Shown: piece by piece, positions 4,406-21,083 of the stretch | How the letters are laid out: each line of letters begins with the position of its first letter | How positions within the stretch are numbered: the first letter of the stretch is position 1 | IMG/VR virus record: IMGVR_UViG_3300044716_000487 | Coordinates: 1-21,418 of that record | Reading direction: 5' to 3' (one strand) | Source: a virus | Length of the DNA: 21,418 bases | Made by a program: the position numbers and the translations under genes | Notes under the pieces: model-generated | Databases searched by the model: none | What the model was told of the DNA's origin: nothing | Seen by the model: only the letters and a program-made list of their open reading frames with translations

Positions 4406-4419
4406 GATAAATATAAAAA
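4406..4419 (+). promoter_or_regulatory. Candidate promoter element GATAAATATAAAAA upstream of tagged gene
   Basis: This 14-nt string is repeated exactly at 19743-19756. Both copies lie in a short intergenic gap, 11-12 nt before the ATG of a gene encoding an N-terminally tagged protein. It contains GATAAATA, one base from the T4 late-promoter octamer TATAAATA. It may be a late promoter, or only an A/T-rich start context of the sort seen at many genes here. Confidence 0.3.
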
Positions 4420-4430
4420 TTAATGACAAA

Positions 4431-4799
4431 ATGAGAACCTTCAAAGAATATCTTATAGAGACAGGAACTTTTTCTGAAATAGAACTTCAAATGTTAAATG
4501 AAAATTTGAAATCCGAGCTGACACCTGAAGAAGAAGCCAAAGTTGATGAAGCAGTTAAAAAATTCTGTGAAGAATATCTTGAGAAAAACAAAGGAATGAA
4601 AGAATTTAATGAGGAACTAACAAATGAAGGATTTTTAGGATCGGTAATTGGTGGTTTAACTGGTTATGCATTAGGTTCATCTATTGGTAAAGTTATTGCA
4701 AATGTACTCGGTATCCAAAAAGGCGTTGTCTATGATTTACTAACTAGTAAACTAGTTGGAGCTGCATTAGGTGCTGCCCTTGGAAAACGAATGATATAA
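4431..4799 (+). CDS. Tagged small glycine-zipper protein, possible internal head/core protein
   Basis: The 122-aa product begins MRTFKEYLIE-TGT, a variant of the tag found on many proteins in this window, with LIE matching an (I/L)-x-E prohead-protease site. Residues 25-60 are strongly acidic and helical. Residues 63-122 are hydrophobic with Gly/Ala every few residues (GSVIGGLTGYALGSSIGK, later KLVGAALGAALGKRM), a glycine-zipper arrangement that could pack against or insert into membranes. T4 places small head-core genes (67, 68) after the tail-tube and portal genes; this one follows a tube-like gene, so an internal head protein is plausible. A pore-forming or DNA-entry role is an alternative. 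Function is inferred from layout only. Confidence 0.5.
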   Translation: MRTFKEYLIETGTFSEIELQMLNENLKSELTPEEEAKVDEAVKKFCEEYLEKNKGMKEFNEELTNEGFLGSVIGGLTGYALGSSIGKVIANVLGIQKGVVYDLLTSKLVGAALGAALGKRMI

Positions 4800-4804
4800 A
4801 TTAT

Positions 4805-5419
4805 ATGATAACAGTTGGTATAGATTTTTCTATAAATTCGACCGCAATGGCCATAAAGATGGGTTCTAAAACTCATCTTTTTTCGTATGTGCCAAATTAC
4901 ACTAAAGGTAAAGCCGCATTCAAAACTCATGACTACTTTGATTCTAATATACTTGTTCAAGGCTATACTAAAGCATCTACCTCTAAAGACTCAATCGAAG
5001 ATCAATCAAATAAGTTACTTAATGCGGACTATCTCTCCGATGTCATTATGGATACTTTTACGTATTTAGGAATAACTCAAGTTGATGAAATCCGAATAGA
5101 AGGATTTTCTTACATGTCTAAGGGAAACAGCTTTATAGATTTAATAACCTATAACACCTACCTCAAAGTAAAGCTAATTCAAAAATTTGGTCATTGTATC
5201 AAAGTGGTTCCTCCAAAGACTCTTAAAAAAGCCTACACAGGAAATGGTAACGCTACCAAATGTGATATGATGAGAAAATATATCGAAGATAACAATAATA
5301 AGATAACGGAAAAAATAAAAGAGCTGGGATTTATAAAGGAAGTAGAATTCAATATACCTAAACCGTTAGATGATATTATAGATGCAATTGCATTAACTTC
5401 AATATGGGATGAGAATTAA
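4805..5419 (+). CDS. RuvC-like Holliday junction resolvase (RNase H fold)
   Basis: The 204-aa product has the layout of phage and bacterial RuvC-like endonucleases. The first strand carries MITVGIDFSINSTA with catalytic Asp7, a central strand has Glu99 (RIEGFSY), and the C-terminal helix has LDDIIDAIA (Asp189, Asp190, Asp193). Together these give the four-carboxylate site of the family. The segment KVVPPKTLKKAYTGNGNATK (133-152) matches the basic region seen in RuvC relatives. Its likely role is resolving branched recombination or replication intermediates before packaging, the job T4 gives to gp49. It lacks the N-terminal tag carried by its neighbours, as expected for an intracellular enzyme. 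Its stop codon sits inside a 19-bp tandem repeat. Confidence 0.85.
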   Translation: MITVGIDFSINSTAMAIKMGSKTHLFSYVPNYTKGKAAFKTHDYFDSNILVQGYTKASTSKDSIEDQSNKLLNADYLSDVIMDTFTYLGITQVDEIRIEGFSYMSKGNSFIDLITYNTYLKVKLIQKFGHCIKVVPPKTLKKAYTGNGNATKCDMMRKYIEDNNNKITEKIKELGFIKEVEFNIPKPLDDIIDAIALTSIWDEN

Positions 5420-5447
5420 GCAGTAACTGGAGAATTAAGCAGTAACT
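5411..5447 (+). repeat. 19-bp tandem duplication over a stop codon
   Basis: An 18-nt unit, GAGAATTAAGCAGTAACT, occurs at 5411-5428 and again at 5430-5447 with one base between (period 19). The first copy contains the last Glu-Asn codons and stop of the resolvase gene, so the duplication copies the gene end. It looks like a recent slippage or recombination scar. Confidence 0.85.
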
Positions 5448-5512
5448 ACCTGAAAAACTATATTATTTCAACTGTTTCAACCAGTAATGGTTATATGATT
5501 ATTTGATCAGGT
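5448..5512 (+). other. Candidate structured RNA element in intergenic gap
   Basis: The gap between the resolvase and cyclase genes holds an outer inverted repeat ACCTGA (5448-5453) / TCAGGT (5507-5512) and an inner hairpin AACCA-GTAA-TGGTT (5479-5492) closed by a GNRA-type tetraloop. There is no U-tract after it, so it is not a standard terminator. It could be a 5' leader structure of the cyclase gene, which starts at 5534. Confidence 0.35.
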
Positions 5513-5533
5513 CAGTTTCAAGATAAATAACTT

Positions 5534-6169
5534 ATGAAAACTTTTATAGAATTTATTAACGAATCAAAAAACGAGGAAACTCAAGCTCCTATTAGATCCG
5601 AAAGGCTCCTTACACAAGAACAAAAGATGTGTAATGAATTATATGAGGGAAAGAGAGGATATCCTGCCGTAATGTTTACGGATGTGGTTGGATCTTCACA
5701 AATGTGGTCAGATGATACTCTATCAATGAAGAAGCGAATCGATTCACACTTTGAGCTAATAAATGATATAGCTAAGAATTATAATGGATTCGTGGTTAAG
5801 TCTATTGGAGATGCATTTATGATCTATTTTAAAGAATCTGATGATACTTTAGATCGAGCTATAAAATGTGGAATTGATATACTCAAATCAGAATCTCTTC
5901 CTTTACGTGTTGGAATCTGTGAAGGTCATATGCAAGAAAAAACTTATGTCCTACAAAATGCCAGACTTAAAGATTTTTTTGGTAACGTAGTTAATGTAGC
6001 TTCTAGAATGGAATCTAAAGTTGCTGATCCTGAAGGAATTGCTTTCTCTTCAGTAGATAAAGTTCCTCAATACATATTAGATAAATACGAACCTCAAGTT
6101 CTAGGACCTAAACAAATACCAGATCTTAAAGGAGCTAGTATAGAAACGGTGTTCAAAATAAAACCATAA
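5534..6169 (+). CDS. Tagged class III adenylate/nucleotide cyclase
   Basis: The 211-aa product starts with the tag MKTFIEFINE-SKN, then has one class III cyclase catalytic domain (about 43-210). The metal-binding aspartates are Asp50 (FTDVVGSS) and Asp93 (SIGDAFMIYF). The substrate-selecting pair is Lys89 and Asp147 (DFFGNVVNVASRM), the combination known for ATP rather than GTP. The transition-state residues Asn154 and Arg158 are present in the N-x-x-x-R spacing. All catalytic positions are intact, so cAMP synthesis is the prediction, probably as a homodimer; uridylate or cytidylate cyclisation is possible because Pycsar cyclases belong to this superfamily. There is no membrane segment or sensor domain. 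The tag suggests the enzyme is packaged in the head and delivered on infection, where it could disturb host signalling or nucleotide-based defence. Confidence 0.9.
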   Translation: MKTFIEFINESKNEETQAPIRSERLLTQEQKMCNELYEGKRGYPAVMFTDVVGSSQMWSDDTLSMKKRIDSHFELINDIAKNYNGFVVKSIGDAFMIYFKESDDTLDRAIKCGIDILKSESLPLRVGICEGHMQEKTYVLQNARLKDFFGNVVNVASRMESKVADPEGIAFSSVDKVPQYILDKYEPQVLGPKQIPDLKGASIETVFKIKP

Positions 6170-6170
6170 A

Positions 6171-6740
6171 ATGTTCTTAAAATATAAAGAGTTTCTTAAC
6201 GAGAAACAAAAACATCACCCAGGAGATCCTCCAGAAATCGGTCTTTATTCTAAAGGAGGTAAAGAAGCCCTTAAAGGAACTGGATATTCAGATAAAGAAA
6301 AAGCAGAATCTACGTGTAAGCAACTTGATGGTTTAAAAAAGAAAGGTGAACATAAATGGGCTATGTCAATAGCTACTACTATGGAATCTCGAGCTAAAAA
6401 GCATCAACATCAAACCGATGGTATGAGAGATGCTATTAAAGTATTCCGTGAATGGATTGACAAGAATAGAACAACTGAATCTGTCGATGAGGCTGAAAGT
6501 AAAACTTTATTTCATCCAGGAGAAGGGGATAAAGTTGAAGGTACTGGATACGCTGATGCGGAAGCGGCTAATAAAACAATAGCTATTATCAATAAATTAA
6601 AGAAGGAAGATCATAATCATGCAATGGCTATAGCTACTACTATGGAAAATAGAGCTAAAACTCATAAATTTAGCACTCCTGATATGAAAGAGGCTGCTAA
6701 GATATTTAGAGAATGGATAGATAAAAACAAAAAAAGCTAA
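6171..6740 (+). CDS. Tagged protein with two tandem copies of a helical domain
   Basis: The 189-aa product begins MFLKYKEFLNE-KQK, the tag. The rest is an internal duplication: residues about 34-99 and 121-187 each run GTGY[SA]D...AM[SA]IATTME[SN]RAK[KT]H...FREWIDKN. Both copies are His/Lys/Ala-rich and helical. At the DNA level an identical 18-nt string (6369-6386 and 6630-6647) lies in equivalent positions 87 codons apart. Similar GTGY...A..Ta..M..RAk.H...GM..A repeats occur in hypothetical phage proteins, but I know no function. The short linker ESVDEAES between copies resembles ES-x-x-NE-A linkers in other tagged proteins here. It starts one base after the cyclase stop and overlaps the HNH gene by one base. 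Confidence 0.65.
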   Translation: MFLKYKEFLNEKQKHHPGDPPEIGLYSKGGKEALKGTGYSDKEKAESTCKQLDGLKKKGEHKWAMSIATTMESRAKKHQHQTDGMRDAIKVFREWIDKNRTTESVDEAESKTLFHPGEGDKVEGTGYADAEAANKTIAIINKLKKEDHNHAMAIATTMENRAKTHKFSTPDMKEAAKIFREWIDKNKKS

Positions 6741-7093
6741 TGGCTCTGAATCCAAACTTAATTAACTTTGAGACTTATAGAGATAATTACGATGATCTTC
6801 TAGAAAATAAGGAAGATTATTTTATTTTTGTTAGAGCACTAACCGAAAGAAACTATGATTTGTTTAAGACTAGAATCAATCCAAAGAATCTCAAAAGATC
6901 TTGGAAGGCCAATCATTTAGATCATATATACTCGATATCTCAAGGATTTAAAGATGGCATAAATCCATTTTGGATTGCTCATCCATGTAACCTTCAGATG
7001 CTAAAAGCTAAGGAAAACAAAAAGAAGAACGCCAAATGTGGACATACTCAAGAGGAGCTTTTTGAGAAAATAAAAGAACTTGGAGAAATATGA
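6740..7093 (+). CDS. HNH endonuclease-like protein
   Basis: The 117-aa product has a compact HNH pattern: NHLDHIYSIS (His59, Asp61, His62), then PCNLQML (Asn84) and KENKKKNAK (Asn93 with flanking Lys). The segment DHIYSISQGFKDG then IAHPCNLQML matches HNH nucleases of T4-type phages, including free-standing homing enzymes and host-DNA nucleases. No zinc-binding Cys pairs are evident; only Cys83 and Cys100 occur. The N-terminus (MALNPNLINFETYRDNYDDL) is not a clear tag, although NFETY and DLLE are faintly similar. It sits inside a run of translationally coupled tagged genes (1-nt overlap before, 4-nt overlap after). It could be a homing endonuclease that inserted here or part of the accessory set. 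Confidence 0.72.
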   Translation: MALNPNLINFETYRDNYDDLLENKEDYFIFVRALTERNYDLFKTRINPKNLKRSWKANHLDHIYSISQGFKDGINPFWIAHPCNLQMLKAKENKKKNAKCGHTQEELFEKIKELGEI

Positions 7094-7488
7094 GTAATTT
7101 CCTAAAATACGAAGAGTTCATAAATAAAAAAGAACCTCTGATTGAATCAGAAGATCTTTCGTTTTTGAATTACGAAGAATTTCTATTAGAAAAGAAATGG
7201 AATAAGGATGTTGAATCTAGTCATTTGAAAAATCTTAAATATGATTCAGATACCAGAGTTCTAGAAATTGAATTCAATAATGGTTCAGTTTATCAATACC
7301 AAGAAGTTCCTAAAGGAGTTTTTAGAGACCTATCGATGGAGCATAATATACTTCAGAAAATAGGTAAAGGGATCGCAAAAGGGGCTAGAAAGCTATTTGG
7401 TAGAGACGCGGTAGACGAAGGTACTTTCGGTACTAGATTTTGGGACCTTATCCGAAGAGGTGGTTACGAATATAAAAAAGTAAGATGA
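7090..7488 (+). CDS. KTSC-domain protein with two tags and a cationic helix
   Basis: The 132-aa product has two consecutive tag-like segments: residues 1-19 (MSNFLKYEEFINKKEPLIE, ending in LIE) and 25-34 (FLNYEEFLLE). A KTSC domain follows: SSHLKNLKYDSDTRVLEIEF (43-62), GSVYQYQEVPKGVF (65-78), and a C-terminal FWDLIRRGGYEYKKV (117-131). KTSC is a small domain related to the C-terminus of lysyl-tRNA synthetase and is thought to bind nucleic acid. Between its halves sits ILQKIGKGIAKGARKLFG (87-104), a strongly cationic amphipathic helix not in the usual short KTSC form. The double tag may reflect a tag duplication. ATGA overlaps with both neighbours suggest translational coupling. The KTSC call is fairly secure; the function is unknown. 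Confidence 0.75.
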   Translation: MSNFLKYEEFINKKEPLIESEDLSFLNYEEFLLEKKWNKDVESSHLKNLKYDSDTRVLEIEFNNGSVYQYQEVPKGVFRDLSMEHNILQKIGKGIAKGARKLFGRDAVDEGTFGTRFWDLIRRGGYEYKKVR

Positions 7489-8156
7489 GAAACCTAATAG
7501 ATTACGATCAATTCCTATTTGAGGAACGTAGAAAGATGATATTTAGAAATAGAGGTAATGCTGAAATTACATCAGCTGATTCCGATATTATTGATGCAAT
7601 TACCGAATGGATAGATCAAAAAACGCCTCCTCATAAAGCTGACAAAATTGGAGATTTTTTGAACCAAAATCGCGATAGAATAAAAGGTTTGATGAAAACT
7701 AAACCAGAAATTTATGCTCCTCCATTTGGAGATGTTTGCTATAGAGGACTTGAAAAAGTTTCTAATATGGAACAAGTTATAGACCTTGTAAGTAAAGGAC
7801 GCTTCAAACAAGTTAAAGCTCCTGGATATGAAGGTATGATATCAGCTATAAAAATAGAAAATTACGATTATTCACCAAGAAGACTTGCTCAATCTTGGTC
7901 AATAGATCCTGATGTTCCGTGGAGATTTTCGAATTCAGGTATAATTTTAGAAGCCGAAATTGACGGAGACTTTATAATGAATCCTTCATATACATCCAAT
8001 ATAAATAAGACAATTAATCGGTCTGGACCTAGCGAAGGCTTAACCGAAGAAGAGGTTATTCACTTAGGTAAGAAATATAAAAAAGTTACTCTTTATATTG
8101 ATATCGGTAGCGTAGAAGACGATAGTCCTTTATTTCCTTTTGTGAAAGATCTTTAA
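7485..8156 (+). CDS. Tagged ADP-ribosyltransferase-like protein (Alt-like role)
   Basis: The 223-aa product starts MRNLIDYDQFLFE-ERR, a tag ending in LFE. The body carries the signature order of R-S-E mono-ADP-ribosyltransferases: Arg87 in CYRGLE after a helical region, Ser137-Trp-Ser139 in AQSWSID, and a C-terminal Glu188-Glu-Glu190-Val-Ile (TEEEVIHLG) matching the E-x-E-V-I/L end motif. The strand after it, KKVTLYIDI, is the usual closing strand. The spacing is normal for the fold. In T4, Alt is such an enzyme: packaged in the head, trimmed by the prohead protease and injected to modify host RNA polymerase. A tagged enzyme of this fold would be a strong analogue. The assignment rests on motifs by eye; sequence similarity to Alt itself is not apparent. 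Confidence 0.6.
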   Translation: MRNLIDYDQFLFEERRKMIFRNRGNAEITSADSDIIDAITEWIDQKTPPHKADKIGDFLNQNRDRIKGLMKTKPEIYAPPFGDVCYRGLEKVSNMEQVIDLVSKGRFKQVKAPGYEGMISAIKIENYDYSPRRLAQSWSIDPDVPWRFSNSGIILEAEIDGDFIMNPSYTSNINKTINRSGPSEGLTEEEVIHLGKKYKKVTLYIDIGSVEDDSPLFPFVKDL

Positions 8157-8190: not shown

Positions 8191-9276
8191 ATGAGTAATC
8201 AACCTTCTATTCCCAGCTACTTTTCATTGGAATCTCAAAGGCGAGAAATTCAAAATCTATTTAATTCTGAAGATAGTATAAAGTATATCGGTCACGAATT
8301 GATGGTTCCTAACAAAAATGATTACCGAGTCATTCCCTGCACGTCCGATAGATGGACTCTTTTCAATAACGATGGAGATACTAATTTAATCTCAAATGTG
8401 TGTCTGCACCGTCAATCTAAGTTACTTAATGGTAGTGGAAATAAGAAAATTATCGGATGTAAAGTACATTGTTGGTCTTATGAAAACACCGGCAAAGTTA
8501 AGTCTACTCCTTTCTTTAAAGATCCAAAGGTAACCGAATTAAAAAGCAAAAAATTAAGCAATTGGAATGGATTGCTTTTTGATGGGCGTACTCCAGATCT
8601 AGATCTTAAAGCTGCTGGAGTTGACCAATATATCAATTTTGACGGATTCTTCTTTCATTCCTCAACTACAACCGAATATAACTTCAATTGGAAAACATTT
8701 TCTGAAATCTATTTAGAGAACTATCATGTTTTTGGTATGCATCCAGGTCTTAAAGATTTTGTCAATCCGACTGATCTAGAATGGGTTGTTGATAAAGATT
8801 ATTCTCTTCAAAAGGTTGGTATAAATTCTGCACTTAGAATGAGAAGTGGAACTCCTAAATATGCTGAATGGCATAAAGCAATTTCTGAAGCATATCCAAG
8901 CGAACTTCCTAGATATGGAGCTATTTGGATATACATTTATCCAAACATTATGATTGAATGGTATCCGAATGTTTTAGTCGTTTCAACCATACATCCTATA
9001 GAACCTCAAAAATGTGTTAATCATGTAGAGTTTTACTATCCAAAAGCCATGTACGAGGCAAATCCTGATTATTTTAGAATTGAACAAGAAGTATATGAAG
9101 AAACTGCAATAGAAGATGAAGAAGCCTGTTTACTTTTAGATGCTGGAAGAAAATCTCTTTTTGCTGAAGGTGGATATGAATATGGTCCAGTTGAGCCATT
9201 CCTAGAAATGGGAGTAAATGAATTTTATGAGTATCTGAAAAAATCACAAATGGACTCAGATACATATAATAACTAA
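8191..9276 (+). CDS. Rieske-type non-heme iron oxygenase (ring-hydroxylating family alpha-like)
   Basis: The 361-aa product has an N-terminal Rieske domain with Cys71-x-His73 and, after 16 residues, Cys90-x2-His93 (CLHR...CKVHCWSY), the complete [2Fe-2S] ligand set. A catalytic domain follows with NWKTFSEIYLENYHVFGMHPG, giving the mononuclear iron ligands His179 and His184 (H-x4-H). A later acidic helix, AIEDEEACLLLDAG, supplies the likely carboxylate ligand (Asp309 or a nearby Glu). Length and order match alpha subunits of Rieske oxygenases such as choline, carnitine or aromatic hydroxylases. Substrate cannot be read. No reductase or ferredoxin gene is nearby, so host electron donors would be needed. 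There is no tag. A metabolic gene between the tagged cassette and SSB is probably a host-derived acquisition. Confidence 0.92.
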   Translation: MSNQPSIPSYFSLESQRREIQNLFNSEDSIKYIGHELMVPNKNDYRVIPCTSDRWTLFNNDGDTNLISNVCLHRQSKLLNGSGNKKIIGCKVHCWSYENTGKVKSTPFFKDPKVTELKSKKLSNWNGLLFDGRTPDLDLKAAGVDQYINFDGFFFHSSTTTEYNFNWKTFSEIYLENYHVFGMHPGLKDFVNPTDLEWVVDKDYSLQKVGINSALRMRSGTPKYAEWHKAISEAYPSELPRYGAIWIYIYPNIMIEWYPNVLVVSTIHPIEPQKCVNHVEFYYPKAMYEANPDYFRIEQEVYEETAIEDEEACLLLDAGRKSLFAEGGYEYGPVEPFLEMGVNEFYEYLKKSQMDSDTYNN

Positions 9277-15197: not shown

Positions 15198-15419
15198 ATG
15201 TCGTTAATGAAATTTCGTGCTTTTAATAAGATCCGCAAGGAGGTTAAAGAGCAAAAATTCAGAGAGGCTAACGCCACTAAATTCAAGAAAGCTTTCCTAG
15301 AAAACCTTTCTAAATATGGAGCAAAAGATGCTTCTGAATTAGATGAAGAGCAACTAGCCGAATTCCTAGAAACCATGAAAAATTACAAAAATAATCTAAA
15401 TAGCAATGAAACTTTATAA
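15198..15419 (+). CDS. Small helical hypothetical protein
   Basis: The 73-aa product follows the helicase gene by 4 nt and overlaps the next gene by 14 nt. It is charged and helical: an N-terminal Arg/Lys-rich stretch (MKFRAFNKIRKEVKEQKFRE), then FKKAFLENLSKYGAKDASEL and acidic DEEQLAEFLETM. The second half resembles short phage segments of the form KF...L.kyGv.s..eLs.ee...F, often joined to unrelated domains, with no known function. A start at the next Met (15207) is equally possible. The frame and compact spacing support a real gene; no function is claimed. Confidence 0.55.
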   Translation: MSLMKFRAFNKIRKEVKEQKFREANATKFKKAFLENLSKYGAKDASELDEEQLAEFLETMKNYKNNLNSNETL

Positions 15420-16431
15420 CTTTGAAGAGTTCCTTAATGAAATGAAATTTAATGAAGAACATGAAATGCTCCTAACCGAAGCATTCAATTCAAGCATCAT
15501 ACAAAATATGACTGCAAATAAAAAAGGTGGCCTCGGAAAAACATTTTACGATGCGCTATCTAAAATGGGAATTGCTGCATCAACCCTAACAAATGCAGAT
15601 CTAACACCGGTTACGCCTCAAGATGCAGAAAAATTAACAAAACAAGATCCTAATCTAATTTTAATTTACTATTCGTCAAAGGAAAAGAAAAATCCATATA
15701 CTAACGATTCTTGGTATAGCAAAGTTGATGGTGATTGTGTTCTTGCAGTTGTTAAAGGTAAGTTATATATGGCTCTTAAATACGACAGATATGCAAGTAA
15801 AGGAGGAAAGGCTGAATATAATTTGGTTCCTGCTATCGATAAAAACGCAGGACAAGCTCTCGGAGGTGTAGAAAAAACCGGTGGTAAATACGGATCTGGT
15901 TTAACTTCCCTTAAGAGAATGGCTGATGTTACTGATGTTGTTTATGTTATCAATCCATCTGAACTTGAAGTTGATAGTAAAAAAATGAGAACCGAAAGAG
16001 CTGAGGCTAAAAAAGGTGCTGCTGCTTTTAAAGATGACAAGCAATTCAAAGCAGAAAACATGTCTAGATACGAAGCTATTTTAAGAGAAAGAGCTTCAAA
16101 TGATGATATCGATTCTATTGTTAGAGATTCAATTGATAAAATAACCGATCAAATTAAAGCAGCGTTAACTTCCGGTAAAAAAGGATCCTATGGAGATATT
16201 TTAGTTGGTGAAGATCCTAAAGGAAGAGAAGTTAGAATGTCGGATGCTACTCGTTTGATGGAAAAAATGCTAGATAACTATGCACGTTATACTCAATATA
16301 TAGATACCGCACAAAAATCAGAAGAGCGTCATGGTTTAGAAGATAGCTACTACAAAAGAGAAGCTGCTTCTAAAGCAAAAGACATTAAAGATGCAGCTAA
16401 GAAGATAGAAAATTTTAATTACGCTTGGTAA
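15406..16431 (+). CDS. Tagged protein of unknown function, candidate virion cargo
   Basis: The 341-aa product begins MKLYNFEEFLNE-MKF, a clear tag with LNE before the predicted cut. A second acidic stretch, FNEEHEMLLTEAF, follows directly. Residues about 25-190 look alpha/beta (LILIYYSSKEKKN, DCVLAVVKGKLYMALKYDRY, VTDVVYVINPSE), and the rest is Lys/Glu/Ala-rich helix (for example ERAEAKKGAAAFKDDKQF and a KAKDIKDAAKKIENF end). I recognise no domain. The long basic-acidic helical C-terminus would suit a protein packed with DNA. It overlaps the preceding gene by 14 nt, so the two are probably coupled. Confidence 0.6.
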   Translation: MKLYNFEEFLNEMKFNEEHEMLLTEAFNSSIIQNMTANKKGGLGKTFYDALSKMGIAASTLTNADLTPVTPQDAEKLTKQDPNLILIYYSSKEKKNPYTNDSWYSKVDGDCVLAVVKGKLYMALKYDRYASKGGKAEYNLVPAIDKNAGQALGGVEKTGGKYGSGLTSLKRMADVTDVVYVINPSELEVDSKKMRTERAEAKKGAAAFKDDKQFKAENMSRYEAILRERASNDDIDSIVRDSIDKITDQIKAALTSGKKGSYGDILVGEDPKGREVRMSDATRLMEKMLDNYARYTQYIDTAQKSEERHGLEDSYYKREAASKAKDIKDAAKKIENFNYAW

Positions 16432-17697: not shown

Positions 17698-18525
17698 ATG
17701 AACACTAGACAAATTTTTGAAGCTAGAACTCAAGTTAAAAGAAAATACGGTGAGCACGCTTCTATTAGAGTAAATGAAAAAACTCCAGTAAGAAATAAGG
17801 TTATTGAATTCGTAGGAAAACGATTTGTAACTGAAACCGAAATGAAATCCTATTTAACTCAATTGAGTGAATCAAGAGGTAAAGAGCTTAATCAAAAACA
17901 GTGGTTTGCGCGTAATCAAAAATTCTTTGAATCTTTTGAGAACCGAGGACAAAAAGTTTGGACTTTATCTAAATATGGTAAAAGAGTTCATGAGATGATA
18001 ACTAAAAGCGCTCAAAAGCAAATGGTTAGTGAATCTATCGGACTTTTCAAATCTCAAATTTTTGAATCTGCTATTAATGAAGGAGTTTCCATCAATAATC
18101 TTGGAGATTATAGTTTCCCGGAAAATGGTAATTTTTCTATAGAAACTCCAGAAGAACAAGAAGCTATTATGAAATTCCTCAATGTTAGATCTATGGATGA
18201 GCTTTATAATTTCGGCGGTGAAGTTGAAAATGATTCTGAAAGAGGTGGAGATGAAGCAGATGGATTGAATCTTTATGACGATTATAATGAAGGACCTGAT
18301 GGAGAATTTAATCAATTCGCATTTTTTGAATTGAGAAGAAGAATGTTAGGAGGAAAAAGACCTGATGCATTACCAGATATATTAGACACTAACGGAATGG
18401 GTCATATCATCGAAGGAGCAATCAAAGGAGTTTGCTACTGGGGTAACGATTACGGATATGAATATATTTACGTTAACAAGAAGACAGTAATGGAGCTACT
18501 TAAAGAATTTAATGCAAATAATTAA
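17698..18525 (+). CDS. Protein with winged-helix-like N-terminal domain and internal tag-like linker
   Basis: The 275-aa product has a basic N-terminal part (residues 1-100) whose segment PVRNKVIEFVGKRFVTETEM...WFARNQKFFE...KVWTLSKYGKRVHEMI has the helix-turn-strand rhythm of a winged-helix DNA-binding domain. Residues 113-129, SIGLFKSQIFESAINEG, are nearly repeated at the start of the gene at 21085 and end in INE-G, an (I/L)-x-E site. The C-terminal half is acidic (an EVENDSERGGDEADGL stretch) and ends in an alpha/beta segment GVCYWGNDYGYEYIYVNKK. It may be made as a precursor and cut at the internal site. Function unknown; the DNA-binding suggestion is from pattern only. It overlaps the next gene by one base. 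Confidence 0.5.
   Translation: MNTRQIFEARTQVKRKYGEHASIRVNEKTPVRNKVIEFVGKRFVTETEMKSYLTQLSESRGKELNQKQWFARNQKFFESFENRGQKVWTLSKYGKRVHEMITKSAQKQMVSESIGLFKSQIFESAINEGVSINNLGDYSFPENGNFSIETPEEQEAIMKFLNVRSMDELYNFGGEVENDSERGGDEADGLNLYDDYNEGPDGEFNQFAFFELRRRMLGGKRPDALPDILDTNGMGHIIEGAIKGVCYWGNDYGYEYIYVNKKTVMELLKEFNANN
18034..18084 (+). other. Second-class tag, internal copy (SIGLFKxQIFES...NEG)
   Basis: Encodes SIGLFKSQIFESAINEG inside a 275-aa protein. The same motif opens the protein at 21085 as SIGLFKNQIFESVRLNEG. Both end in (I/L)NE-G, compatible with prohead-protease cleavage. Confidence 0.5.
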
Positions 18526-18800
18526 TGATAAACCTAATCTCATATGAACAATTTATTCTAAACGAAGCTTTAGATACATCTAAGATCTCAGAGATTAAAA
18601 AGTTAGTCTCTGAGAAACTTAGAACTGAAGTAGAATATACGGAATCTTCCGGAGTATTCACATGTAATGGTCTTTCATTATGTGATTTTTCTATACTAGA
18701 AGATATACTTAAAGACGCAGGTTTTGAAGCTAAAAATATCAAATTGAACGGAACTCTTATTTCCGGTTCTACTGAATTTGAAATAAAAGAGAAAAAATGA
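18525..18800 (+). CDS. Tagged small alpha/beta protein
   Basis: The 91-aa product begins MINLISYEQFILNE-ALD, the tag with one extra residue before LNE. The remaining 75 residues read helix (TSKISEIKKLVSEKL), strand (TEVEYTESSGVFTC), helix (DFSILEDILKDAGF) and two strands (NIKLNGTLIS, STEFEIKEK), a small compact alpha/beta fold. Two Cys are present (Cys48, Cys53). No family is recognised. It overlaps the upstream stop by one base and the next gene by four (ATGA), so it sits in a coupled run of tagged genes. Size and tag together suggest a small internal head protein comparable in scale to T4 IPI-IPIII. Confidence 0.6.
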   Translation: MINLISYEQFILNEALDTSKISEIKKLVSEKLRTEVEYTESSGVFTCNGLSLCDFSILEDILKDAGFEAKNIKLNGTLISGSTEFEIKEKK

Positions 18801-19393
18801 AAAATTTAATATCATACGAAGACTTCCTAAATGAATCATATGCATATGACACTAAAAGAGGATGTAAGCATATCAAATTTATTTTGAGTGATCCTCTAAT
18901 GTACAAAACACCTTTTTACATTTCCTTCAAAAAAGGAACGACTGAAAAAGAAGTTGAAAATCTTATTAAAGAAATCGAAAAGGAAAATAAGTCAATTTCT
19001 AAAATGAAAAGAACTTATGGACCTGGACCTTTTGGTCAATTAAGTCTCCAAATCGAAAAACCTAATTATGCAGGACTTACTTGGATATTTAAGGCCCTTG
19101 ATGAATTTTACGGAAACAACGGAGATTCAATGGGTTGGTTCGGTGGTATCGGTGAATCAATTACCGAATCAGAACTTAACGAAATGAAATTTACTTCTGC
19201 TGGAGTTAAAGAATTACTAAGTGCAATCTATTACAATTGGAATAAATTGAAAAAGGAGATGAAAGAACAAATGTACTTTAACGACTTTAAGCAAATCCTT
19301 GATTATATGAAAGATGCTGATCAGGAAGAACAAAAAGAATTAGAAGACTTTGTAAAATCTCAAGGTATTGAAATTTTAGCATTAGACAAATAA
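18797..19393 (+). CDS. Tagged two-part protein of unknown function
   Basis: The 198-aa product begins MKNLISYEDFLNE-SYA, close to the consensus of all tags here. Residues 20-110 look alpha/beta (GCKHIKFILSDPL, then Lys/Glu helix, then QLSLQIEKPNYAGLTWIF). A linker GGIGESITESELNE-MKF at about 116-132 contains a second LNE site followed by MKF, the same three residues that follow the tag in the protein at 15406. The last 65 residues are a helical, acidic domain (YYNWNKLKKEMKEQ...DQEEQKELEDF). The second site suggests that the protein could be cut into two mature pieces. Function unknown. Confidence 0.6.
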   Translation: MKNLISYEDFLNESYAYDTKRGCKHIKFILSDPLMYKTPFYISFKKGTTEKEVENLIKEIEKENKSISKMKRTYGPGPFGQLSLQIEKPNYAGLTWIFKALDEFYGNNGDSMGWFGGIGESITESELNEMKFTSAGVKELLSAIYYNWNKLKKEMKEQMYFNDFKQILDYMKDADQEEQKELEDFVKSQGIEILALDK

Positions 19394-19401
19394 GTAACAA
19401 A

Positions 19402-19743
19402 ATGAAGAATCTTAAAACTTACGATCAATTCATAAATGAATCCAGTCTTCCTTTAGAGATTGAAAAGATCATGAAAACCACTAAAATGGAGTGGAAAGAA
19501 GATGAGGAAATGACTGATGAATTAATGGATGAGCGAGGAGGAGATACCTCAGATGCGTATGTTTATGTTGCAGTTAACAAATCTAGAGATCGTGAATATG
19601 TATTCAAAACTTGGTTAAATGATAGAATGTATAACATCCAATTAGAAGAGGATGAAACTGTTATCTTTACCGGGCAATACAACAGAAATGATAAAAAATA
19701 CTATGATCGAGACTGTGAAAACATTCTTGGTTTTTCCTTTTAG
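19402..19743 (+). CDS. Tagged small acidic protein
   Basis: The 113-aa product begins MKNLKTYDQFINE-SSL, the tag. The mature part is acidic: EWKEDEEMTDELMDERGGDTSD (51-70 region is charged), then a beta-rich half with AYVYVAVNKSRDREYVFKTW, MYNIQLEEDETVIFTG and a final NDKKYYDRDCENILGFSF. This could be a small beta-barrel or DNA-mimic-like protein; the negative charge is notable but not diagnostic. No family recognised. The next gene follows after a 25-nt gap containing the GATAAATATAAAAA element. Confidence 0.6.
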   Translation: MKNLKTYDQFINESSLPLEIEKIMKTTKMEWKEDEEMTDELMDERGGDTSDAYVYVAVNKSRDREYVFKTWLNDRMYNIQLEEDETVIFTGQYNRNDKKYYDRDCENILGFSF

Positions 19744-19756
19744 ATAAATATAAAAA
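19743..19756 (+). promoter_or_regulatory. Second copy of GATAAATATAAAAA upstream of tagged gene
   Basis: Identical to the 14-nt string at 4406-4419 and ending 12 nt before the ATG at 19769; the first base is the last base of the preceding stop codon. Possible late promoter (compare T4 TATAAATA) or start-context sequence. Confidence 0.3.
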
Positions 19757-19768
19757 CACATAAAATAG

Positions 19769-20518
19769 ATGAAAAATATCAAAACTTTTGAACAATTTAT
19801 CAATGAAACTACTCTTAATGCATCTTACAACAATGCTTTAAGATCTGCTGGCGAATTGGAAAAGAAATTAGGAATTATGCTCCAAACTCAATGGAATTCT
19901 ATTGACGGAGGAACATCTCACTTAGAAAGAGAAGAACAAGATGCAGTTAAAAAACATGGTCAATTTGCAGTATTCACAATTGAATCTCTTCCTAAAGGAA
20001 CCGCATTTTCAAAGTCTATAAATGATTTGAAAGAAAATCTTTTCTTGTTAATATGGGAAGATGGAACCTACCAATTTAGAAAGGGTATGCAACCTATTGC
20101 AACTCCTCTACATTCTAGCGCTGAAAGATCTAAAATCAAATCAGGAGCTTACATTCCAAGACCATTAAAAGAACTTGATTTACAATGCTTAAATCATTGC
20201 TTGTCTATGGCAGTTAATGAATCTGTTAACGAAGGTAAATCTTATAAAGGAAGAGAAGTTCTTCCTAATTGGATTGATCCTAATAGAGATTTTGGTAAGC
20301 CAGTGAAGAATAGAAGAGAACTTAAGTCTGGTGCTGAATATATCCTTTGGGAACCTGGAATGGACACTTGGCAAGCTGAATACATCTACCAAGGTCAAAC
20401 CGGAGGTAAACATATATTCAATTCATCAACTCAATTCGGAGATGGAGAACCAATGGAATTTACTGATGCTGAGATAGATGAATACATCAAATCTGGTGAC
20501 ATAATTAAACAAAACTAA
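19769..20518 (+). CDS. Tagged two-domain protein of unknown function
   Basis: The 249-aa product begins MKNIKTFEQFINE-TTL, the tag. Domain 1 (about 20-145) is mixed alpha/beta, with AVFTIESLPKGTAFSKSI and LFLLIWEDGTYQF. A linker, MAVNESVNEGKSYKGRE (147-163), has two NE-S/NE-G steps like those in other tagged proteins. Domain 2 (about 165-249) looks beta-rich (ELKSGAEYILWEPGMDTW, AEYIYQGQTGGKHIF) and ends in an acidic helix. If VNE-G is also cleaved, two separate polypeptides would result. I recognise no family for either domain. It ends one base before the next ATG. Confidence 0.6.
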   Translation: MKNIKTFEQFINETTLNASYNNALRSAGELEKKLGIMLQTQWNSIDGGTSHLEREEQDAVKKHGQFAVFTIESLPKGTAFSKSINDLKENLFLLIWEDGTYQFRKGMQPIATPLHSSAERSKIKSGAYIPRPLKELDLQCLNHCLSMAVNESVNEGKSYKGREVLPNWIDPNRDFGKPVKNRRELKSGAEYILWEPGMDTWQAEYIYQGQTGGKHIFNSSTQFGDGEPMEFTDAEIDEYIKSGDIIKQN

Positions 20519-20519
20519 T

Positions 20520-21083
20520 ATGCCATCAACCACTCCGGCTCAACAAAGACTTATGGGTCAGGCTTATGCAGTTAAGACTGGTAAATTAAAACCAACCGAT
20601 TTAGATCCTGAATATAGAGATCAAATTGTTAAATTAGCTGACTCTATGACCGCTAAAGATCTAAAAGACTTTGCTGAGACTAAACATTCAGAAATGGAAG
20701 AAGAGGAAGAAGAAACTATATACGAAATGAAAAATATACCGACATTCGAAAATTTCATTAACGAATCAATAGTTAATGAAGCTAAAGCTATTAAATGGAA
20801 GCCTTCTCAAAATCCAAATGCTGAAGGATGGACTGGAAAATCTTTTCCTCATGGATCTAAAGGAGATAGGCTGCTATCTCGTGCAGAATTCATTAAAAAA
20901 TGGTCTACTAGAATAGAAAGTTGGATTGGAGTTAAGCCGAATTTAGATGCGGTTGAAGAATTCTTTCCTAATCACTCTATAGATTTTAATTTTGCAGGTT
21001 CAGATGGACAAACATATCGAATCTATTCACCAGGTGAAGGTCCTAGATCTAAAGAATATCACATACAAAAATTAAAGAAATAA
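20520..21083 (+). CDS. DUF3008-like domain fused through an internal tag to a second domain
   Basis: The 187-aa product starts MPSTTPAQQRLMGQAYAVKT and continues to MTAKDLKDFAETKH (43-56), the pattern of DUF3008-like phage proteins. An acidic hinge (EMEEEEEETIYE) leads to Met70, which opens a complete tag, MKNIPTFENFINE-SIV. The last 100 residues form a second, basic alpha/beta domain (AIKWKPSQNPNAEGW, LLSRAEFIKKWSTRIESW). The tag belongs at an N-terminus elsewhere, so either two genes fused here or a second translation start operates at 20727. The second domain is unrecognised. A frame join is intact with no frameshift. Confidence 0.6.
   Translation: MPSTTPAQQRLMGQAYAVKTGKLKPTDLDPEYRDQIVKLADSMTAKDLKDFAETKHSEMEEEEEETIYEMKNIPTFENFINESIVNEAKAIKWKPSQNPNAEGWTGKSFPHGSKGDRLLSRAEFIKKWSTRIESWIGVKPNLDAVEEFFPNHSIDFNFAGSDGQTYRIYSPGEGPRSKEYHIQKLKK
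20727..20765 (+). other. Complete tag at an internal Met (possible internal start)
   Basis: Encodes MKNIPTFENFINE within the protein at 20520-21083, in frame. The ATG at 20727 sits in an A-rich context (tacgaaATGaaaaat) like genuine starts here, so it may be used as a second start as well as being a fusion junction. Confidence 0.5.

Follow-up and report, generated by a model that had tools for sequence, protein, structure and literature searches.

The locus analysed here raises the question of what a phage does with a nucleotide cyclase that starts with a tag of the head-cargo type. The stretch of DNA under study (the window) is a tailed-phage fragment that makes up a complete IMG/VR virus record (21,418 bases), and the gene lies at 5534–6169 on the plus strand, where a 211-aa, stand-alone class III nucleotide cyclase with an ATG start was assigned from the PF00211 match, the catalytic hexad and a structure model. 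The reading that we favour, with a probability of about 0.55, is that this tagged cyclase would be made late, packaged into the head, trimmed and injected, and would then make cAMP in the next host.

In the profile search, PF00211 matched the ORF with E=2.5e-16 (60.3 bits, cut-off 21.9) and was above the cut-off in 13 of 13 related records. The ORF consists of a single catalytic domain, without a membrane or sensor part. In an alignment of 14 phage members (43–71% identity), D50, K89, D93, D147, N154 and R158 form invariant columns; these are the two metal aspartates (D50 and D93), the substrate Lys/Asp pair (K89 and D147) and the transition-state residues (N154 and R158). Profile searching recovered 22 viral loci, with distinct proteins in 12 of them. 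Two IMG/VR contigs encode a protein of 71% identity flanked by matching neighbours, and the cyclase of the 634,780-base phage LR745206 is 46% identical to that of the window. Pairwise dN/dS was mostly ∼0.1 among the phage cyclases, and between the window and its nearest relative (L002) it was 0.198/2.00, indicating at the sequence level that the cyclase is under purifying selection. We take the ORF to be real because its translation reads as annotated, PF00211 matches it, homologues with the same neighbours exist and dN is far below dS in that comparison. The initial annotation had proposed a class III cyclase and named six catalytic positions; the class is borne out by the profile, the conservation and the structure model, and all six positions are present and invariant in the 14 members.

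The AlphaFold model of the cyclase had a mean pLDDT of 79.6. The cyclase fold occupies residues 41–211 (5654–6166, plus strand), mostly with pLDDT >80; residues from about 40 to 211 are well predicted save around 51–60, and residues 1–39 are poorly predicted. The structure search gave Z scores of ∼20 over ∼165 residues against solved adenylate and guanylate cyclases (RhGC, 6sir, Z 20.5; CyaB, 3r5g, Z 20.1; 166–168 residues). PycC was not among the best 50 matches listed in either structure search, from which no exclusion of PycC follows.

With this set of residues the protein is very probably catalytically active, and ATP is likely to be its main substrate. In class III cyclases a Lys/Asp pair selects adenine, and in a profile alignment K89 and D147 align with the K and D of rhodopsin guanylate cyclases engineered to use ATP (5oyh and 6aoa). 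The specificity residues of the Pycsar cyclases are Y50/D94/R97 in BcPycC, F100/R142/Q144 in EaPycC and F60/K104/F109 in AnPycC (PMC11224242). At those positions, with equivalence judged by the distance to the metal aspartates, the phage cyclase has F48, K89 and A94, a combination that fits an ordinary adenylate cyclase and less than fully excludes the AnPycC set. ATP is therefore likely rather than certain, and the preference for it proposed earlier is supported by the K89/D147 pair, short of proof. Membership of Pycsar, a system whose cyclases were pointed to as belonging to the same superfamily, is not supported; the BcPycC and EaPycC residue sets are unmatched.

A Pycsar-like pyrimidine cyclase making cCMP or cUMP is a very unlikely identity for the protein. 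Weak PycC profile matches were obtained (best 3.6e-6), and clade D PycC also has F and K at the equivalents of F48 and K89, again by spacing; F and K fit ordinary adenylate cyclases too, however, and the equivalent of F109 is A94. PF00211 fits far better (2.5e-16), neither the F, R, Q set of EaPycC nor the Y, D, R set of BcPycC is matched, and no effector bearing a cyclic-nucleotide-binding domain was found in the 13 related records searched. Assembly roles are known for some T4 internal proteins, IPIII for example (PMC9026906), which lends something to the notion of a catalytically idle head-core protein retained for its fold. The six catalytic residues are nevertheless invariant where identity elsewhere falls to ∼43%, and we regard an idle protein as extremely improbable.

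The cyclase starts with a capsid-targeting-type tag, MKTFIEFINE (5534–5563, plus strand), identical at 7 of 10 positions to MKTYQEFIAE of T4 IPII and IPIII; one residue further on, the two starts read MKTFIEFINES and MKTYQEFIAEA. For the T4 capsid targeting sequence (CTS), it has been shown that the ten N-terminal residues of IPIII are sufficient to bring about packaging, that positions 4 and 7 count for targeting and 8 and 10 for processing, and that the prohead protease cleaves at L/I-x-E (PMC9026906). The cyclase has F4, F7, I8 and E10 at these functional positions, within the stretch MKTFIEFINESKNEE: aromatics stand at 4 (Y-to-F) and 7, as in the T4 CTS, and I8-N9-E10 forms the L/I-x-E site. 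A prohead-protease cut is predicted after E10, and the mature protein would then start SKNEE. In all family members the N-terminus contains an aromatic residue and closes with [ILVF]-x-E just ahead of a conserved RSxR-L segment; variants of the tag include MKWINNFKIFE-D, MKHINNFRLFE-A and MKYLSNWKQINE-A, among others.

The tag pattern was observed in 10 of the 29 predicted window genes compared with 3 of 127 internal Met positions, and in LR745206 a tag is seen in about 111 of 854 genes, compared with 0.7% for internal Met; these controls rule out a chance tag. The tag can be recognised as related to the T4 CTS of the literature, a name that the initial annotation did not give it, and the cargo tag ascribed to the cyclase there has held up, given the 7/10 match to IPII/IPIII and its non-chance occurrence in the window.

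The other tagged genes of the window are all on the plus strand, and an L/I-x-E site lies within or near the tag in every tagged ORF listed. Upstream of the cyclase is a gene for a small glycine-zipper protein with the tag MRTFKEYLIE (4431–4799); its cAMP-phosphodiesterase label (phrog_767, E=0.0065) covers only a stretch including the glycine-zipper, and we distrust it. The cyclase gene is followed by one for a tagged protein without assigned function (6171–6740, MFLKYKEFLNE), a tagged homologue of which also follows the cyclase in L002 and L003, by a tagged KTSC-domain protein (7090–7488; PF13619, E=3.7e-14) and by another tagged protein without assigned function (7485–8156, MRNLIDYDQFLFE). 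A further tagged protein is encoded at 15406–16431 (MKLYNFEEFLNE), and four tagged genes stand in a row at 18525–20518 (starts at 18525, 18797, 19402 and 19769). The recognisable replication, tail and metabolic genes (RuvC-like, SSB, tail-tube-like, Rieske, NTP-transferase) are untagged. Some additional features were seen. The KTSC protein has two successive tag-like stretches, the second ending FLLE. The ORF at 20520–21083 encodes a DUF3008 domain and then, near residue 70, a full in-frame tag, MKNIPTFENFINES, which may be internal or else mark a second start. The Rieske protein (8191–9276) is a phage-encoded ring-hydroxylating oxygenase alpha subunit (PF00848, 3.9e-30). The gap ahead of the cyclase gene contains two near-perfect direct copies of GAGAATTAAGCAGTAACT (5410–5460).

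The T4 late promoters read TATAAATA, with a weak first T (PMC1524935). A similar element, GATAAATA, is located at 5522–5529 on the plus strand, 12 nt ahead of the cyclase ATG, and at the same distance in L002 and L003. The cyclase message may be leaderless, because the +1 would fall close to the ATG. The element also precedes the tagged genes 4431 (at 4406) and 19769 (at 19743) by 25–26 nt, and L003 keeps it ahead of the cyclase and the 4431 gene at the same distances, together with the tag of the latter. Three of the five window copies sit 10–30 nt ahead of genes (P=2e-4); as a window-wide motif it shows no overall enrichment (5 versus 3.2 expected), so position alone is notable. In LR745206, AATATATA/TATATATA was found directly upstream of 41 of 111 tagged genes compared with 65 of the 743 genes without a tag (p=3e-13), and the TAnnTTTG motif (Bacteroidota-type −7) is depleted ahead of the tagged ones. 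Occurrences of AATATATA in that genome peak at about −13 and about −30 from the ATG, which suggests leaderless and leadered transcripts from one promoter class. The upstream motifs fit late expression, which packaging requires.

Head genes were not recognised in the window, and as it is a 21-kb fragment without them, the phage's own protease is unseen. In the relatives the head machinery is T4-type, judged from profile matches: the contig L067 encodes a portal (PF07230, 2e-57), a head maturation protease (phrog_207, 4e-29) and a Gp23 major capsid protein (2e-28). By PF03420 the gp21-type protease was detected in 8 of 12 related records, weakly and below the curated cut-off, the PHROG match being strong. 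The cyclase gene lies 7–9 kb from the protease gene in seven contigs, so that in those phages the presumed tag-cutting protease has its gene close to that of the cyclase. Between the portal and protease genes of L067, an RNase R/II-type ribonuclease (RNB, 1e-110) is encoded on the opposite strand (L067:11480–13399).

Taken together, the gene would encode a minimal class III adenylate cyclase, probably homodimeric, that serves as head cargo of a T4-related phage. The enzyme would be made late, its N-terminal decapeptide would dock it on the prohead core, and a gp21-type protease would trim it after Glu10. The mature enzyme (SKNEE...) would be loaded along with the genome and, on ejection, reach a new host, where it would turn host ATP into cAMP ahead of any phage gene expression. 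Packaging and injection of the cyclase appear probable; delivery with the genome, as initially proposed, stands as a well-supported inference from the CTS-type tag, the cleavage-type site, the T4-type head and protease genes of the relatives and the late-type motif. An effect of cAMP on the host is modestly favoured. T4 heads carry 20–200 foreign fusion proteins each (PMC9026906), and we estimate that 100 copies working at 1 per second would bring a 1-fl cell to ∼10 micromolar within a minute, a physiological level. No PF00027 match was obtained in 13 related records, the 634-kb genome among them, and by this profile a phage-encoded cyclic-nucleotide receptor in the relatives was rejected. Since no cyclic-nucleotide-binding protein was found in these relatives, the receiver of the signal is probably a host protein, belonging to host regulation or to a cyclic-nucleotide-gated defence. 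Host reprogramming and counter-defence may be the two main purposes, and we prefer neither.

CTS-like starts in LR745206 (L006–L037) include MKYLKxFNES, MKHLKTYKIFES and MIKKYxxFIKES. Few family matches were obtained among the 92 tagged proteins scanned; the tagged set includes primase-like and endolysin-like domains. One tagged protein is Acb1-like, with two HxT-type motifs and a fused exonuclease (MKLKKYKQFIKES); at 1e-5, its match to Acb1 is a weak one and extends over part of the profile only. This fusion, of an Acb1-like 2H phosphoesterase part to a DEDD-type exonuclease, is encoded at L028:8260–9573 (LR745206 448257–449573), and a tagged fusion of the same kind at L158:265–1971 (MKIKNYIQFIKES); it is possible that such fusions are injected anti-CBASS cargo. 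A tagged SMODS-associated NUDIX protein (MILDFLSFINES) is encoded at L023:827–1435 (LR745206 340824–341435; PF18167, 1.5e-30), a domain known from CBASS loci. A tagged Acb1-like protein occurs in G002 too. In LR745206 at least, the Acb1-like and NUDIX proteins thus place the cyclase in the company of proteins connected with cyclic-nucleotide immunity.

The same kind of tag on the Acb1-like and NUDIX proteins of LR745206 and on the Acb1-like protein of G002 gives some weight to the proposal that the cyclase is counter-defence cargo, one of several injected anti-defence proteins, whose cyclic mononucleotide (cAMP or other) would occupy, desensitise or mislead a cyclic-nucleotide-gated immune receptor; T4 injects proteins directed against host defence, namely IPI and probably IPIII. 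We know of no immune receptor antagonised by cAMP, however, and the cyclase is also found in relatives whose examined fragments showed no Acb1. Other cNMPs, moreover, failed to activate PycTIR at up to 1 mM (PMC11224242). This purpose is rather unlikely on present evidence. We consider it unlikely also, and slightly more so, that the late cyclase stays in the producing cell, with the tag used for core binding without ejection or for another localisation and cAMP acting late. Such a course would agree with the late-type motif upstream of the cyclase and with the very large number of tagged proteins in LR745206: ∼100 in one phage is far above the packaged number of T4, in some of them the tag may serve something else, and if all were cargo the virion protein load would be exceptional. 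Yet the tag matches the experimentally defined targeting and processing positions of T4, it is kept over deep divergence beside a cleavage-type site, and the tag is missing from those window genes that can be recognised as DNA-replication or tail genes.

In a tree with cellular cyclases, the phage cyclases formed one clade (support 99) on a long stem, with long branches and an unsure cellular root; from the single clade and the stem, phages have probably carried the gene for a long time. An initial search of GTDB with the phage profile gave no relative, and a broader one recovered cellular cyclases of ∼27–36% identity, with other domains and without the tag in those inspected. The low cellular identity, the lack of a tag in the inspected cellular cyclases and the single phage clade all speak against a recent host capture. 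Upstream regions of LR745206 contain the Bacteroidota −33/−7 promoter (24 versus 1.8), which is absent from the window. In G002 (L070:5217–9565), genes for a SusC-like TonB receptor and a T9SS-sorted (Por_Secre_tail) protein adjoin the cyclase. The five huge phages >634 kb of one survey had predicted Bacteroidetes hosts (PMC7162821).

The closest known systems each share part of this picture. The T4 proteins IPI, IPII, IPIII and Alt are alike in the N-terminal decapeptide (7/10 to IPII/IPIII), the L/I-x-E site and a tag ahead of an unrelated mature domain, and the phage relatives have gp20/gp21/gp23-type head genes; unlike in T4, the predicted cargo here is a nucleotide cyclase, and there are many more tagged proteins per genome. 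Cellular class III cyclases (the Ma1120, CyaB, Rv1625c and RhGC domains, and transmembrane or multi-domain bacterial enzymes) have the same fold, metal Asp pair, K/D purine pair and transition-state N/R. The phage clade, in contrast, is on a long branch (best identity ∼36%), without a membrane or sensor domain, and has the CTS-type tag and the invariant RSxR-L segment in front. Pycsar PycC, of the same superfamily, is a host gene whereas the cyclase is a phage gene; the specificity residues of two characterised PycC clades are unmatched, and no effector gene was found in the relatives. Acb1 (anti-CBASS) and Apyc1 (anti-Pycsar) are also phage enzymes acting on cyclic-nucleotide signals, but both destroy signals and the window cyclase would make one. 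Cyclases were initially considered rare in phages, which needs the caveat that adenylate cyclases have been annotated in pelagiphage genomes, in curli (T8SS) clusters (PMC9599517). Set beside it by description, the pelagiphage enzyme is a partner of secretion genes and is not described as head cargo (PMC9599517). In the open papers searched we found no report of a phage adenylate cyclase as virion cargo; both the enzyme class and this way of delivery have precedents, and what is new is that they are combined.

Large T4-like phages may thus switch on a host signal, most likely cyclic AMP, at entry. Among the injected proteins of T4, Alt modifies RNA polymerase and IPI blocks restriction; an injected second-messenger synthase, if confirmed, would add chemical signalling at the instant of infection. 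More tentatively, and with considerable doubt, the phage cyclases could be a phage-only lineage of virion-packaged enzymes that bring a signal in with the DNA to deceive cyclic-nucleotide immunity, or to take control of host regulation, while no phage gene has yet been read; the former would be counter-defence by making a signal and not by destroying one. If the reading is true, the capsid targeting sequence would also provide a readout of the cargo lists of uncultured huge phages, in which most genes are without known function; here, such a list has Acb1-like and SMODS-associated NUDIX proteins beside the cyclase.
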